Source: Anaeromyxobacter dehalogenans 2CP-C
GTDB lineage: Bacteria; Myxococcota; Myxococcia; Myxococcales; Anaeromyxobacteraceae
Length of the DNA stretch: 64,000 nt
Assembly (NCBI RefSeq): GCF_000013385.1
Contig: NC_007760.1
Span: 496,001 to 560,000, forward strand
Direction of reading: 5' to 3'
This document shows positions 37,687 through 49,937 of this stretch, in pieces. The first letter of the stretch is position 1. Each line of letters starts with the position of its first letter. The position numbers and the translations under genes were made by a program. The notes below the pieces were generated by a model, which saw nothing but the letters and a program-made list of their open reading frames with translations, did no database searches and was not told the origin of the DNA.

Positions 37687-37733
37687 CCCTCGCGGGGGTT
37701 CTGAGGGTCGATACCGCGACCGCGCGCGCGACC

Positions 37734-37798
37734 GGTGCCGGAGTCAGCGAGCGACCGGCGACCGGTGCCGGAGTCAGCGCGACCGGTGCCGGAGTCAG
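37734..37798. repeat. Repeat family B, three copies
   Basis: GGTGCCGGAGTCAG at 37734, 37764 and 37785, each preceded by ACC so that CCGGTGCCGG forms a small palindrome. It lies in the 218-base gap after the trehalose gene; nothing else was seen there. Confidence 0.8.
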
Positions 37799-40846: not shown

Positions 40847-41638
40847 ATGCCCGAGCCCACCCAGCCCGAGCGCCGCCCGCTGCGCGGCGGCGACGTCGCG
40901 GCCATCGTGCTCGCGCTGGCAGTGGCCGGCGCGATCGCCTACTTCTGGTTCCACCGTCAGCGCGCGCTGCCGCCGCCCTCGCCCGCGGTGCCGGAGCAAG
41001 CCGCCCCCGAGGCGAAGCCCCCGGACGCAGCCCTGCCGGCCGCGGTCCAGGCCGACCCGGCGCAGGTGAAGTCGCTCCTCGAGGCCGCCTCCGCGGATCC
41101 GGAGTACCGCCGCTGGCTCGCTGCGGGGGGCGACCTCGTCCGGCTCTGGGCGGTGCTCACGGACAACCTGGCCGAGGGCGTCTCGCCCCGGAAGCAGCTC
41201 CCGTTCCTGGTGCCGGAGCAACCGTTCTCGGTGGCAGAGCAGGGCGGCCGGCAGGTGATCGCCCCTGCGTCGTACGCCCGCTACGACCGCTTCGCCGACG
41301 CGGTGGCGTCGATCGACCCCAAGGCGACCGCCGCCGCCTACCGCGCGCTGCGACCGGCCGTCGAGACCGCCTACCGACTGCTGGGCTACCCCGACGCCGT
41401 GCTCGACCGCGTCACGGCGCGCGCGCTCCACCGGCTCGAGGCGGCACCGCGCCCGGCCGGGCCGGTGGCGGTCGTCCCGCACGCCGAGGCCGGCGCCGGA
41501 TGGGCCTACGCGGATCCGGTACTCGAGCACCTGGGGGCGGTCGAGAAGCACCTCCTCCGCATGGGCCCGCGGAATGCGGGGAAGGTGCAGGCGAAGGCGC
41601 GCGAGATCCGGGAGGCGCTGGGCCTCCGAGAGCGGTAG
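40847..41638 (+). CDS. DUF3014 family membrane-anchored protein
   Basis: 263 residues. One N-terminal TM helix (DVAAIVLALAVAGAIAYFWF) is followed by a proline/alanine linker. The globular part contains GGDLVRLWAVLTDNLAEG, YARYDRFADAVASIDPKA and AYRALRPAVETAYRLLGYPD, the DUF3014 landmarks I know. The family occurs in proteobacteria as an inner-membrane protein facing the periplasm; function unknown. ATG start at 40847. Family B repeats follow it. Confidence 0.85.
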   Translation: MPEPTQPERRPLRGGDVAAIVLALAVAGAIAYFWFHRQRALPPPSPAVPEQAAPEAKPPDAALPAAVQADPAQVKSLLEAASADPEYRRWLAAGGDLVRLWAVLTDNLAEGVSPRKQLPFLVPEQPFSVAEQGGRQVIAPASYARYDRFADAVASIDPKATAAAYRALRPAVETAYRLLGYPDAVLDRVTARALHRLEAAPRPAGPVAVVPHAEAGAGWAYADPVLEHLGAVEKHLLRMGPRNAGKVQAKAREIREALGLRER

Positions 41639-41641
41639 GGC

Positions 41642-41741
41642 GGTGCCGGAGTAAGCGCCTCCGCGAGGCGGTGCCGGAGTCAGGCGCGCGCCCGGTGCCG
41701 GAAGCTGCCGGTGCCGGAGCAACGTCCCGGTGTCGGACTCG
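41642..41741. repeat. Repeat family B, five degenerate copies
   Basis: Variants of GGTGCCGGAGTCAG at 41642 (GTAAG end), 41670 (exact), 41694 (GGTGCCGGAAGC), 41710 (GAGCAAC end) and 41729 (GGTGTCGGACTCG). Between the first two lies a small hairpin CGCCTC-cgc-GAGGCG. They fill the gap between the DUF3014 gene and the ABC importer operon. Confidence 0.75.
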
Positions 41742-45972: not shown

Positions 45973-46518
45973 TCAACGTGCAGGCACCTCGATCCGCCCT
46001 CTCGCATAATCTAGGAACCGCAGCACGGTGTGCACGTCGGCGAAGGCCTCCAGAGACGCGTGGCTCAGCGCGACACGCATCACGCACCCGAGCTGCGCGC
46101 CGGCGGTATCAAGGGGACCATGGGCGCGGTCAAGTGCCCACCAACGCGGGCCACGCACGGCTGCCTCGAGTACGTCGATGCGTTCCTCGCCACCGAACGC
46201 CATCCAGACCGCCTCGGCCTGCCACGTATCGAGCAGCATCGCGAGTGCTGAGACGCTTCCCTCCGCGACCACGAAGCCGTCTCCGGCCACGGCAATCGCG
46301 TGAGACGCAAGGCGGCGCGCGACTCCCGTCGTTCGAACGAAAGCATTCTCGGCCACGCACGCGATCGGCTGACTCGTAGCGACTGCGACAACCAGGGACG
46401 CGAGGAACTCGGAGACGTGCGCGTCCGACGGCGCCGTGACCTGGAACCGAGCGCCACGCGGCGAGGCGCCAGGCGCGAGACCCGCGGGGCACCACTGAAC
46501 GTCAAGATCGAAACGCAT
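45973..46518 (-). CDS. Uncharacterised protein in accessory patch
   Basis: 181 residues from ATG 46518 (MRFDLDVQWC); longer starts read back through a repeat. Not recognised. It has no signal or TM helix and appears to be a mixed alpha/beta protein (QVTAPSDAHVSEFLASLVVAVA, MLLDTWQAEAVWMAFGGEERIDVLEAAVRG). Third codon positions are clearly less GC-rich than in the neighbouring phn genes, a sign of more recent acquisition. It faces the phn operon tail to tail and is divergent from the transposase. Confidence 0.6.
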   Translation of the reverse strand: MRFDLDVQWCPAGLAPGASPRGARFQVTAPSDAHVSEFLASLVVAVATSQPIACVAENAFVRTTGVARRLASHAIAVAGDGFVVAEGSVSALAMLLDTWQAEAVWMAFGGEERIDVLEAAVRGPRWWALDRAHGPLDTAGAQLGCVMRVALSHASLEAFADVHTVLRFLDYARGRIEVPAR

Positions 46519-46590
46519 GGTTTGGCGCTCGCCCGCGCTGGAGTTGTTGGTCACCAGGGGAGATGGATGTGATCGCCCTTGCCGACTAAC

Positions 46591-46800
46591 GGTGCCGGAG
46601 TCCGCGTAGCAAGCCAAGGGCGGTGCCGGAAGAGAGCAACGGTGCCGGAGTTGCGGTGACCACGTGATTGCGCGTGGCCTTGCTGCAGGCGGGAGCGAAA
46701 CGGCGCAGATGGTTCGCGCGGCGACCGCAGGTCCGTGCGGCGGACGGACCTATGCGGCGCTCGTGAGAACTGTCGCGCTCGGTCGTTGGTACCGGAATTG
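46591..46800. repeat. Repeat family B copies upstream of the REP-associated transposase
   Basis: GGTGCCGGAGTCCG at 46591, GGTGCCGGAAGAG at 46622, GGTGCCGGAGTTGC at 46641 and a more distant GGTACCGGAATTG at 46788. All share the orientation of the transposase gene and end 14 bases before its ATG. The 296-base gap holds no other gene. Confidence 0.75.
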
Positions 46801-46814
46801 CGTAGCGGGTTGGG

Positions 46815-47483
46815 ATGGCCCGCGTTCCCCGGTTCGCGCTCGTCGAGCGCGATTCGTCGAATCACTGCACCTGGCGGGCACACGACCTCGAGTTCGTCTT
46901 CGAGGAGCCGGGCGCGCGCGACAAGTTCCTGGAACTCGTGGGTCGGTACAAGGACCGCTACGGCGTCGAGATCCGGTCGTACTGCCTGATGGGCACCCAC
47001 CCGCACGTCACCTGCACGTGCCGCCAGGAGCAGGTGCAGTTCAGCCGCTTCTGGCAGGTCGTGAACGGGCAGTTCGCGCGCTGGTACAACAAGGTGAGGA
47101 ACCGACGCGGTCAGGTGGTGATGGAACGGATGCGCACGCCGCGCATCCAGGAGGGCGGCGCCCACCAGCTCACCGTCATGCGGTACGGCGACCTGAACCC
47201 GGTGCGCGCCGGGCTGGTGAAGAGTCCAAAGGACTGGAAGTGGTCGAGCTACCGCCACTATGCGTTCGGCGAGCCGAATCCACTCATCACCGATGCGCCT
47301 GAGTATCTGGCGCTCGGGAAGACCGCTCAGGAGCGTCGGAAGGCGTACCAGGCGCTGTTCGCGCTGCCGCTCTCCGAGTCACTTCGCACGCGCCGCGTCG
47401 AGCTCGTCAGTTTCCCGTTCGTCGGCGACGCGACCTGGGTGATGCGCCGGCTCGAGGCCGCCGGATTGTCGCCACCGGATTGA
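46815..47483 (+). CDS. REP-associated tyrosine transposase (RAYT, Y1 family)
   Basis: 222 residues of the single-strand Y1 transposase fold found beside REP repeats. Landmarks: SSNHCTWRAHD at the N-terminus, YCLMGTHPHVTCTC carrying the HxH metal motif (HPH), a helix with the candidate nucleophile in FARWYNKVRN, then MRYGDLNPVRAGLVKSPKDWKWSSYRHY, the conserved RAYT C-terminal block. Unlike IS200 elements there are no nearby terminal hairpins or a tnpB gene. The usual NHVH is changed to THPH, but both histidines remain. Copies of a 14-base repeat crowd around the gene. RAYTs are single-copy domesticated enzymes thought to move or maintain REP sequences. Confidence 0.88.
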   Translation: MARVPRFALVERDSSNHCTWRAHDLEFVFEEPGARDKFLELVGRYKDRYGVEIRSYCLMGTHPHVTCTCRQEQVQFSRFWQVVNGQFARWYNKVRNRRGQVVMERMRTPRIQEGGAHQLTVMRYGDLNPVRAGLVKSPKDWKWSSYRHYAFGEPNPLITDAPEYLALGKTAQERRKAYQALFALPLSESLRTRRVELVSFPFVGDATWVMRRLEAAGLSPPD

Positions 47484-47644: not shown

Positions 47645-48220
47645 TCACGGCTCCTTCCCCGTTCGCCGGTCGGCCTCGTGGAGAGCCGCAGCGACCTCCT
47701 CCACGTAGCGCTCGCTCATGGGGTCGATCCCGGTGGAGATCACCTTGAAGCGCAGGATCGTTCGCATCGTGACGTTCGGCGTCCTGGTCATGCTCTCCGC
47801 GTACGTGAGGATGTCGCCGTTGTCTGGGAACGCGTCCCAATCGAGGAAGGGATACAGGAACGAGAGAATGAGCTGGTCGGCGCGATAGACGCGAAAGCGT
47901 TTCACGTGGGCGAACACGGCTGAACGCCTTACGCGCAGTTCTGGGTCGGGCCAGCGCACCTCGAACGTCCCGATGCGGAGCACGAGCTGTTCACCCGTGG
48001 AGTAGACCGCCATGAACACCCGTCGGCGCTGCCGAAAGTGGAGCTTTTGCCACGCGCCGAAGCCGACCACCCCTCGTTGCAGCGCGCCGGCCTCGGCCGC
48101 CGCCGGATCGACGGCGCGTGCCTCGGTCACCAACCCGGCGGCTGTGTCGAGGATGTAGCGCACCGGCGCGTTCCGGTAATCGGCCAGGAGGACGGTCGCC
48201 GTGTTCTCGAGCGGAACCAT
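47645..48220 (-). CDS. Uncharacterised protein in accessory patch
   Basis: 191 residues from ATG 48220 (a TTG two codons earlier is possible). Not recognised. The sequence is beta-rich in the middle (RRRVFMAVYSTGEQLVLRIGTFEVRWP) with a hydrophobic but charged segment near residues 110-125 (LILSFLYPFLDWDAF). No signal peptide. Codon use is less GC-biased than the surrounding housekeeping genes. The 47484-47644 gap before it holds nothing recognisable. Confidence 0.6.
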   Translation of the reverse strand: MVPLENTATVLLADYRNAPVRYILDTAAGLVTEARAVDPAAAEAGALQRGVVGFGAWQKLHFRQRRRVFMAVYSTGEQLVLRIGTFEVRWPDPELRVRRSAVFAHVKRFRVYRADQLILSFLYPFLDWDAFPDNGDILTYAESMTRTPNVTMRTILRFKVISTGIDPMSERYVEEVAAALHEADRRTGKEP

Positions 48221-48277
48221 GCTCAATGCCCCCCCGCGTACTCGTCAGTCGATCCCAGACCATTTACAGAGACAGCC

Positions 48278-48305
48278 GGTGCCGCGGCGGCGGGTGCCGG
48301 AATGC
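48278..48305. repeat. Repeat family B, one and a half copies
   Basis: GGTGCCG (48279) followed by GGTGCCGGAATGC (48293), in the 150-base gap between two minus-strand accessory genes. Confidence 0.5.
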
Positions 48306-48688: not shown

Positions 48689-48918
48689 GTCACGTCCCTT
48701 CGTCGACCGTCTGCACCGCCGCCGGGGAGGCGGCATCATACGCCGAGTGCACCGGCCGCGCCCGGATCGGCTGCGGCAAGGAGATGCGCAGGGAAGATGT
48801 GAATAGCTAGCGCCTATCAACAGGGTGGGAACGATGTATTGGAGGCCATCCTCACCCCGGCGCATCCTCCATGCGTCCCCGCGAGCTCGCTGGCCGTGTG
48901 GACGAGCGGAGGAACCCG

Positions 48919-49518
48919 ATGACCGTCGCCCTCACCGCCGCAGGTTTCGGCGCGCTGCACGCCGTCTCCGGTCCCGACCACCTGCTCAGCGTGGCGCCGC
49001 TCTCGGTGGGGCGCAGGCGCCAGGCCTGGCGCATCGGGCTGGTGTGGGGGCTCGGGCACGCCGCCGGCACGGCCGTTGCCGCGGCGGTGCTGCTCGCCCT
49101 CCTGTCCGGCGCCGGGCTGCACGTGGTGGACGCCTGGGCCGAGCGCGCGGCAGGCCTGGCGCTCGTGGCGATGGGCGCGGCGAACCTGCTGGCGCTCCGC
49201 CGCCGGCGGGGGATGGCGGCGGCGGGGGCGCGCGACGTTCGCCCGGCGGTCTTCTCGGTCGGCCTCGTGCACGGGGTCACCGGCGCGGCGGCGCTGCTGC
49301 TGGTGGTCCCGGCGGTGAATGCGGGCGCCTCGGTGAAGGTGCTCGCCATCCTTGGCTTCGTCGCGGGCAGCACTGCCGCCATGGCTGCGCTCACCGCTGC
49401 CATCGCCGCGCTCTCCGCGGCGGCCGCGCCCCGGCTCGCGCTCGCCACCTGGCGGCTCCCGGCGCTCGCCTCGGTCGTCTCGGTGGCGGTCGGGATCGGC
49501 TGGGCGATCGCGGCCTGA
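48919..49518 (+). CDS. NicO/UreH-type nickel-cobalt permease
   Basis: 199 residues, six TM helices. The N-terminal helix carries GALHAVSGPDHLLSVAPLS, the HxxxPDH motif of the nickel/cobalt transporter and UreH-like families. The second helix begins WRIGLVWGLGHAAGT with a further His, and the fourth VFSVGLVHGVTGAAA. ATG 48919 has GGAGG six bases upstream. Metal direction (uptake or efflux) cannot be told. Nickel users in the window (hypA/hypB, larA-like) make uptake attractive. Four inverted family B repeats follow its stop. Confidence 0.85.
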   Translation: MTVALTAAGFGALHAVSGPDHLLSVAPLSVGRRRQAWRIGLVWGLGHAAGTAVAAAVLLALLSGAGLHVVDAWAERAAGLALVAMGAANLLALRRRRGMAAAGARDVRPAVFSVGLVHGVTGAAALLLVVPAVNAGASVKVLAILGFVAGSTAAMAALTAAIAALSAAAAPRLALATWRLPALASVVSVAVGIGWAIAA

Positions 49519-49541
49519 CTCTGCGTCCGTAGCCTCCGGCC

Positions 49542-49651
49542 TGACTCCGGCACCATCGGCACCATCGGCGCGGCGTGACTCCGGCACCATCGGCCCGTCG
49601 GCCCCGGCCTGACTCCGGCACCATGGGCGGCGCCGGCCTGACTCCGGCACC
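49542..49651. repeat. Repeat family B, four copies in opposite orientation
   Basis: TGACTCCGGCACC at 49542, 49576, 49610 and 49639 (spacing 34, 34 and 29), and a degenerate one near 49516. They occupy the start of the 419-base gap 49519-49937. The rest of that gap is a long leader of the carboxylase operon with a run of seven T near 49828 and no recognisable gene. Confidence 0.8.
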
Positions 49652-49937
49652 AGGGGCGCTGGGGGCGCGTCGCCGTGGCGATCGCGGCATACGCGCAGCG
49701 TGAACCCGACGGCGGGCGGGCAGGCGAGCGGGCGTTCCCGACCGCATCGGTCGGTGTTTGACGCGGCGAGGCAAAAGCTGCGTCCCCCCTTGCTCGGGCG
49801 CGCCGACCTTGTCACACTTCTGCTCCTTTTTTTCCTGGGCGGGGTCCGCGCCGTGCGCTGCTCGATCCGAGCGCACTGCGGCAGTTCCGCGCAGGGCCGC
49901 AGTCGACGCCAGCCACTCCTCCTGGAGGTCCGTGCCC

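Follow-up and report, generated by a model that had tools for sequence, protein, structure and literature searches.

REPtrons combine an HUH enzyme with a cognate repeat (PMC2817692, PMC8266576), and the REPs concerned are palindromic, headed by GTAG and usually abundant genome-wide. Nunvar 2010 described REPs that accumulate locally around rayt genes in three marine gammaproteobacteria and in Thauera (PMC2817692), so that locality as such is not new; the mechanisms of REP dissemination are called poorly understood in the abstract of PMC8266576. TIRYTs are defined by flanking inverted repeats unrelated to REPs (Di Nocera 2013, PMC3733652). For subclasses 2.1 and 2.3 of the TnpA-Y1 proteins, Quentin 2018 found no REP-like sequence, according to the part of the paper available (PMC6006769). 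The present analysis concerns a RAYT-type gene of Anaeromyxobacter dehalogenans 2CP-C and the short repeats around it, in a window of 64 kb (bases 496001–560000 of a single-contig genome of 5,013,479 bases, hereafter G000). An earlier reading of the same DNA had noticed this association, and its observation stands with corrections; the tag-and-truncation anatomy of the arrays, a second RAYT family and copies inside coding sequences were not part of it.

Comparison with described systems

The locus had been likened to a REPtron. A RAYT-type gene surrounded by a cognate family of short repeats in short direct arrays is indeed present, but the REPtron label is not supported: the repeats form no hairpin, GTAG is not a constant part of them, and their number in the genome is low. 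In common with REPtrons, an HUH enzyme is paired with a cognate repeat, yet none of the three REP properties listed above is found and locality is tighter (PMC2817692, PMC8266576). The resemblance to IS200/IS605 transposases and rolling-circle Rep proteins resides in the HUH chemistry, with a 5′-phosphotyrosine and a 3′-OH able to prime or attack. Here, by contrast, there are no hairpinned IS ends and the products are tandem copies rather than excised circles; in place of multiple near-identical copies with subterminal hairpins, G000 has two gene copies of 86% identity and no hairpin.

Among described systems the TIRYT/TIRtron (RAYT group 1, subclass 2.1) comes nearest; in it a Y1 tyrosine transposase gene is likewise flanked by inverted repeats other than GTAG REPs and repeat copies are single, dimeric or grouped (PMC3733652). 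Flanking inverted repeats, with upstream + and downstream − copies within 10 kb, were found in 17 of 23 RAYT loci, and in the window the nearest downstream − copy lies 2.1 kb from the RAYT gene. The differences are that the GGGGWSAS motif, common to some but not all TIRs, is replaced by a core reading GGTGCCGGA, that copies occur almost only within ~10 kb, and that private 6-nt tags and 3′-truncated copies are seen, of which the available text of PMC3733652 makes no mention. TIRYT-like GGGGACRG repeats are present in more distant Myxococcota relatives (L137); around the distant RAYT relatives of that phylum (L137, L141, L144) lie scattered single copies of GGGGAC[AG]GAG or GGGACGGAG, the former fitting the published TIRYT consensus GGGGWSAS when in the GGGGACAG form.

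By our reading of motifs, rather than from a tree, the window RAYT would belong to subclass 2.1. It shares with that subclass the class-2 signature Y---NP, a length near 238 aa and an SS motif past the core domain, and the subclass is prevalent in epsilon-, beta- and deltaproteobacteria (PMC6006769). It differs in having HPH instead of NHVH or NH[YF]H, and in possessing a cognate repeat where the available text of PMC6006769 gives none for subclasses 2.1 and 2.3.

The repeat and its copies in the window

The 14-mer first proposed as the repeat, GGTGCCGGAGTCAG, occurs in the 64-kb window as seven exact and three one-mismatch copies, and 38 matches with at most three mismatches are found where 17.2 are expected. 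The common core is shorter (GGTGCCGGA), and 17 of its 21 window copies fall between 37.7 and 49.7 kb. Clusters at 37.7, 41.6, 46.6, 48.3 and 49.5 kb were located where the first-pass annotation had put them (Table 1). Two of its statements need correcting: the bases preceding GGTGCC are a tag private to each array, so that the proposed CCGGTGCCGG core is wrong, and not all copies are intergenic, since the predicted gene 40847–41638 contains those at 40987 and 41209. Arrays A–C on one side and array F on the other all point towards the RAYT gene; the lone + copy at 48293 breaks the pattern. A sequence resembling the degenerate gene-proximal copy also precedes the RAYT gene in L048–L051.

Table 1. 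Repeat copies and RAYT genes (positions in the window unless a genome coordinate is given)
Feature	Position	Strand	Description
Array A	37728..37798	+	3 copies with tag GCGACC; RAYT gene 9 kb downstream
Coding copy	40987..40999	+	GGTGCCGGAGCAA, in variable linker of gene 40847-41638
Coding copy	41209..41221	+	GGTGCCGGAGCAA, in gene 40847-41638; clustered substitutions, same length versus orthologues
Array B	41636..41723	+	4 copies in the gap between two genes; RAYT gene 5 kb downstream
Array C	46585..46654	+	3 copies of GGTGCCGGA, each with preceding 6 nt, upstream of the RAYT gene
Degenerate RAYT-proximal copy	46788..46805	+	GGTACCGGAATTGCGTAG, ends 9 nt before the start codon
RAYT gene	46815..47483	+	RAYT-like Y1/HUH protein, 222 aa; THPH motif, YGDLNP tyrosine motif
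Site E	48293..48301	+	Single core copy and degenerate neighbour
Array F	49541..49657	-	4 copies, just past the stop codon of gene 48871-49518
Family II RAYT loci	G000:C1 ~2437727-2438607 (L150 9730-10608), 249748, 361791, 4604422		

Several known identities for the repeats were considered and rejected. When four arrays were folded as DNA, none was clearly stabler than its shuffles (z-scores −0.96, 0.53, −0.30 and 1.22), which speaks against a REP hairpin. The GT[AG]G foot tetranucleotide of REPs is absent from the core in the arrays listed; GTAG does occur in the copy at 46788–46805 and in one array C suffix. A known RNA element was dismissed on the lack of any Rfam match within 36.0–50.5 kb, and array C was not retained as a promoter or terminator, there being no promoter-like site and a single terminator-like site outside the array.

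The RAYT gene and its surroundings

The Y1/RAYT assignment of the gene at 46815 is upheld by the Pfam Y1_Tnp model, whose gathering cut-off of 23 bits is passed with 23.5 bits, and the RAYT family profile matches the E. coli TnpArep structure PDB 4er8 (E 1.6e-5). The equivalog cut-off of NCBIfam REP_Tyr_transpos (80 bits) is missed, the window protein scoring 50.9 and six proteins 42.6–55.6. The catalytic motifs H62-P63-H64 and Y124...N128-P129 are invariant among 16 homologues, and the protein thus displays both the HUH motif and the class-2 Y---NP tyrosine motif of RAYT/TnpAREP proteins. The HUH motif is usually defined as His-hydrophobic-His; its middle residue here is proline, not a hydrophobic residue, and this counts against the explanation favoured below. 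Structure prediction with four sequences gave a mean pLDDT of 46 and was set aside.

The small genes 45973–46617 and 47645–48226, on either side of the RAYT gene, exchange sides in G006 (L051/L099) and neither aligns at the RAYT in G001, so that even close species differ by rearrangement of the RAYT flanks. In G009 and G017, several contigs (L072–L077) end inside RAYT genes, as though near-identical internal segments recur, which may reflect gene conversion of the RAYT gene or its recent duplication. At locus L065 of G011 (G011:C1:3220300–3240299), a RAYT and 23 cores adjoin genes reading as yidC, dnaA, dnaN and recF, judged from sizes, order and two proteins, and from these neighbours the RAYT perhaps adjoins the replication origin.

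Association of the repeat with the RAYT gene across genomes

The 12-mer GGTGCCGGAGTC has 14 copies in the 5.01 Mb of G000, far from the >100 genome-wide copies expected of a REP/REPtron: nine in the window, two immediately in front of the one close RAYT paralogue (G000:C1:1192938, 86% identity) and three single copies elsewhere. Copies within 10 kb of a close RAYT gene amount to 11 of 14 in G000, and to 26 of 31 and 12 of 16 in G001 and G006, two congeners where the RAYT concerned is either of the two orthologues. The first-pass annotation held that equal abundance in relatives lacking the gene, or a different repeat beside the gene in relatives, would speak against the association; neither is seen. 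The RAYT-less congeners G003, G004, G005, G007 (a genome of 66% completeness) and G008 have 4, 5, 2, 4 and 5 copies, and no two of these 20 copies lie within 1 kb of each other. These congeners are collinear with the window only at the operon at ~41.9–45.9 kb, the flanks being non-collinear. A sixth congener, G002, has a RAYT at 56%, a motif with a different 3′ form and five scattered GGTGCCGGAGTC copies.

Of 23 family loci, 21 keep GGTGCCGGA beside the RAYT gene within the stretch retrieved, and five of six genera are represented among them; it is missing at the loci of G022 and G018b (the latter on a contig of 5.9 kb), which counts against the favoured explanation. RAYT fragments at contig ends in G009 and G017 were kept out of this set of 23; three of them enter the extra-tag count given below. 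In other genera of the family the continuation after the core differs (CATG, CGT, GG, GGAC) and is again concentrated at the RAYT: the single RAYT-bearing contig holds 15 of the 19 GGTGCCGGACRT copies of G014, 17 of the 26 of G015 and 23 of the 36 of G016. The motif faces the RAYT gene in 191 of 244 cases across the 23 loci. For the density comparison only, a broad pattern was used, GGTGCCGGASRY, a poor choice that omits the GTC form and takes in coding background: its density is 9.4–29.7 per Mb in 14 RAYT-positive and 9.1–17.6 per Mb in 10 RAYT-negative genomes, overlapping ranges that differ with a Mann–Whitney p of 0.0013. A contig scan with one protein as query gave four loci only. The link between repeat and RAYT gene is stronger than the first-pass annotation could know.

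Two explanations in which the enzyme does not make the repeats bear on these comparisons. Minisatellites or recombination-prone DNA, with the RAYT a mere neighbour, would agree with arrays that are short, GC-rich and of fast turnover between species; this is very improbable and strongly disfavoured, because one core recurs at several separate sites in five genera near RAYTs of the window type, the five RAYT-less congeners have no clusters, and the pattern recurs with a second RAYT family and another motif (see below). Somewhat less remote, though still improbable, is a host regulatory or nucleoid-protein site maintained by selection and only used by the RAYT. Several single copies do occupy constant positions in G013–G016, some of them coding, whereas the orthologous arrays at sites A, B, C and F vary in copy number, tag and suffix among G000, G001 and G006, the motif is concentrated in RAYT neighbourhoods, and Rfam is silent on the region, as stated above. 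At site F of G001, the units include the last part of the neighbouring gene.

A second RAYT family of G000

Control regions proved to hold a different RAYT family, of 25–29% identity to the window RAYT and with the repeated word ACCCAGAGT. The motif of this family II, CCSRACCCAGAGT, has 38 copies in G000 and none in the 64-kb window; 35 of the 38 lie within 26 kb of four family II RAYT genes (Table 1), the other three being at 417.6 kb (one copy) and 4.733 Mb (two copies). One cluster, at 2.41–2.44 Mb, lay where preceding searches had given no RAYT, and because it pointed there an unseen member was found, the stretch beneath it encoding a RAYT of 54–61% identity to three family II members. Five inverted pairs of CCSRACCCAGAGT, 100–190 bp apart and with unrelated interiors, look like MITEs or REPINs.

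Anatomy of the arrays

Arrays were defined as at least two cores within 90 nt on the same strand, giving 38 arrays and 100 adjacent unit pairs. Identity between adjacent units is 0.66–0.85 at positions −1 to −6 relative to the core and falls to 0.54 at −7 and 0.38 at −8, while between arrays of one genome it is 0.24–0.45 at −1 to −6; the shared core is thus preceded by a private tag of ~6 bases. The mismatch hazard is 12/136 at −4 to −6 versus 33/81 at −7 to −9 (Fisher 6e-8, the pairs not being independent). Tags such as GCGACC, GGACCT, GCTGCC, GGCCTC and GCCGAC start with G in 28 of 38 arrays and end with C or T in 32 of 38. Past the core, identity falls off gradually, leaving ragged 3′ ends. 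Exactly native 3′ sequence followed by the tag makes up 23 of 100 spacers (mean 0.5 and maximum 3 in 200 null draws of units from other loci); the other 77 are not accounted for by the simplest form of the model and count against it. In addition, among the 24 arrays with a tag common to at least two units, untagged arrays being dropped, 47 extra tags without an intact core were counted versus 2.99 expected, many of which enter the core for a few bases and then stop. Family II arrays are likewise tag-first with truncated copies (L086). A clear tag is missing at G002, G011 and part of G014–G016, and tags are poor in arrays B and C of G000, which again counts against the model. An unrelated 21-nt tandem repeat with the word CAGCGACTCG is present in 19 copies at the G057 locus (L136 8931–9561).

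Judged from these alignments, the signature is that of copying with a fixed start 6–7 nt before the core and an end that may fall anywhere. An ordinary TIRtron is the principal competitor: short TIR-bounded pieces would be moved, preferentially nearby, by IS200/IS605-like single-strand excision and insertion, and arrays would grow enzyme-free by unequal recombination or slippage. The inverted copies that flank RAYT genes, with the motif mostly directed towards the gene, the MITE- or REPIN-like pairs of family II and the published accumulation of REPs near rayt genes (PMC2817692) all agree with it. Slippage or recombination should, however, neither halt 6–7 nt before the core in arrays that have only the core in common nor leave surplus tags cut off within the core, and an ordinary TIRtron is rated as rather unlikely. 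A fixed 5′ start could also result from replication slippage at a protein roadblock, and this weighs against the favoured explanation of enzyme-driven copying.

Copies inside genes

Cores inside genes near the RAYT are found in G014–G016 as well as in the window. Compared with orthologues at other loci, some are insertions in variable linkers, as at the first site of a UvrD-like protein and in the M23-like peptidase of G016 (the protein names are our own reading). In this peptidase (L067 16165–17217), SGT units repeat in an in-frame linker whose coding DNA is the motif's reverse complement; the G014 and G015 orthologues have one there. Other copies leave the length unchanged: in place of FATGDV and LASPKV an aminotransferase-like protein has FPVPDV and LAVPDV, and in place of IPDL or IEGL the UvrD-like protein has VPDI or VPDV. 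The window copy at 41209 reads CTGGTGCCGGAGCAA in G000 and G001 versus CTCGCCCCGGAGCAG in G006, and the motif is absent from the other eight orthologues too.

Such copies, being substitutions and not insertions, speak against the ordinary TIRtron. Clustered substitutions that rebuild a 9–13-nt motif beside its enzyme suggest overwriting, from the comparison of three genes. Common Val-Pro-Asp codons may explain part of the coding copies of G013–G016; as the sole cause they were rejected, the local excess of GGTGCCGGAC in L067 (23 seen versus 0.6 expected) arguing against it. At the UvrD-like site, VPDL is likewise present in the RAYT-less G021, where different codons specify it.

Proposed mechanism

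Taken together, the RAYT-linked distribution and its locality, the core-and-tag anatomy with fixed 5′ and ragged 3′ ends, and the coding copies without indels make it fairly probable, as far as sequence comparison can tell, that a TIRYT-like HUH/Y1 RAYT recognises single-stranded GGTGCCGGA with a few locus-specific 3′ bases and multiplies this motif near its own gene. The enzyme would bind the core and cut one strand 6–7 nt to its 5′ side, frequently in front of a G, which would leave a 5′-phosphotyrosine and a 3′-OH. Synthesis from the latter would run for varying lengths across the tag, the core and what follows, whereupon the enzyme would seal the 5′ end bound to it onto the 3′ end just made, creating an extra copy that starts at the nick and ends anywhere. 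After repeated cycles the copies would form direct arrays in which the 6-nt tag is private, the core constant and the 3′ ends ragged. That the 3′-OH left by HUH enzymes could prime synthesis or attack, either serving REP dissemination, was put forward by Corneloup 2021 (PMC8266576).

The old tag is not inherited by new arrays, so that the seeding of sites needs a separate process, for which overwriting is a candidate: new nearby sites may arise, at least partly, when the motif is written over near-matching sequence. In its fullest form the proposal is more tentative, and on balance doubtful: the RAYT would create a cis-acting zone of ~10–25 kb in which the motif is written both by 5′-anchored nick–extend–religate duplication at existing copies and by overwriting of near-matches without change of length, coding sequence included, perhaps by means of short single strands that the enzyme releases and that anneal at the replication fork.

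Novelty and meaning

No paper joining Anaeromyxobacter with RAYTs was found in the literature search, where the term TIRYT is rare, and the accessible text of the RAYT, REP and TIRYT literature searched does not describe the array anatomy. What looks new within that literature is a core that is not palindromic and is tightly confined, truncated copies alongside private tags, and overwriting inside genes. Since the arrays record each event by a private tag, a fixed 5′ end and a ragged 3′ end, the question of how such repeats spread becomes one of a defined nick position; the build of the repeats hints that the enzyme nicks just before the repeat, allowing serial copying, and offers a testable answer to it. 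If the proposal is true in its fullest form, the RAYT would be a locally acting, sequence-writing transposase and not a cut-and-paste element. If the overwriting of coding sequence is real, the neighbours of RAYT genes would evolve under a directed substitution bias that may be misread as selection in sequence analyses.
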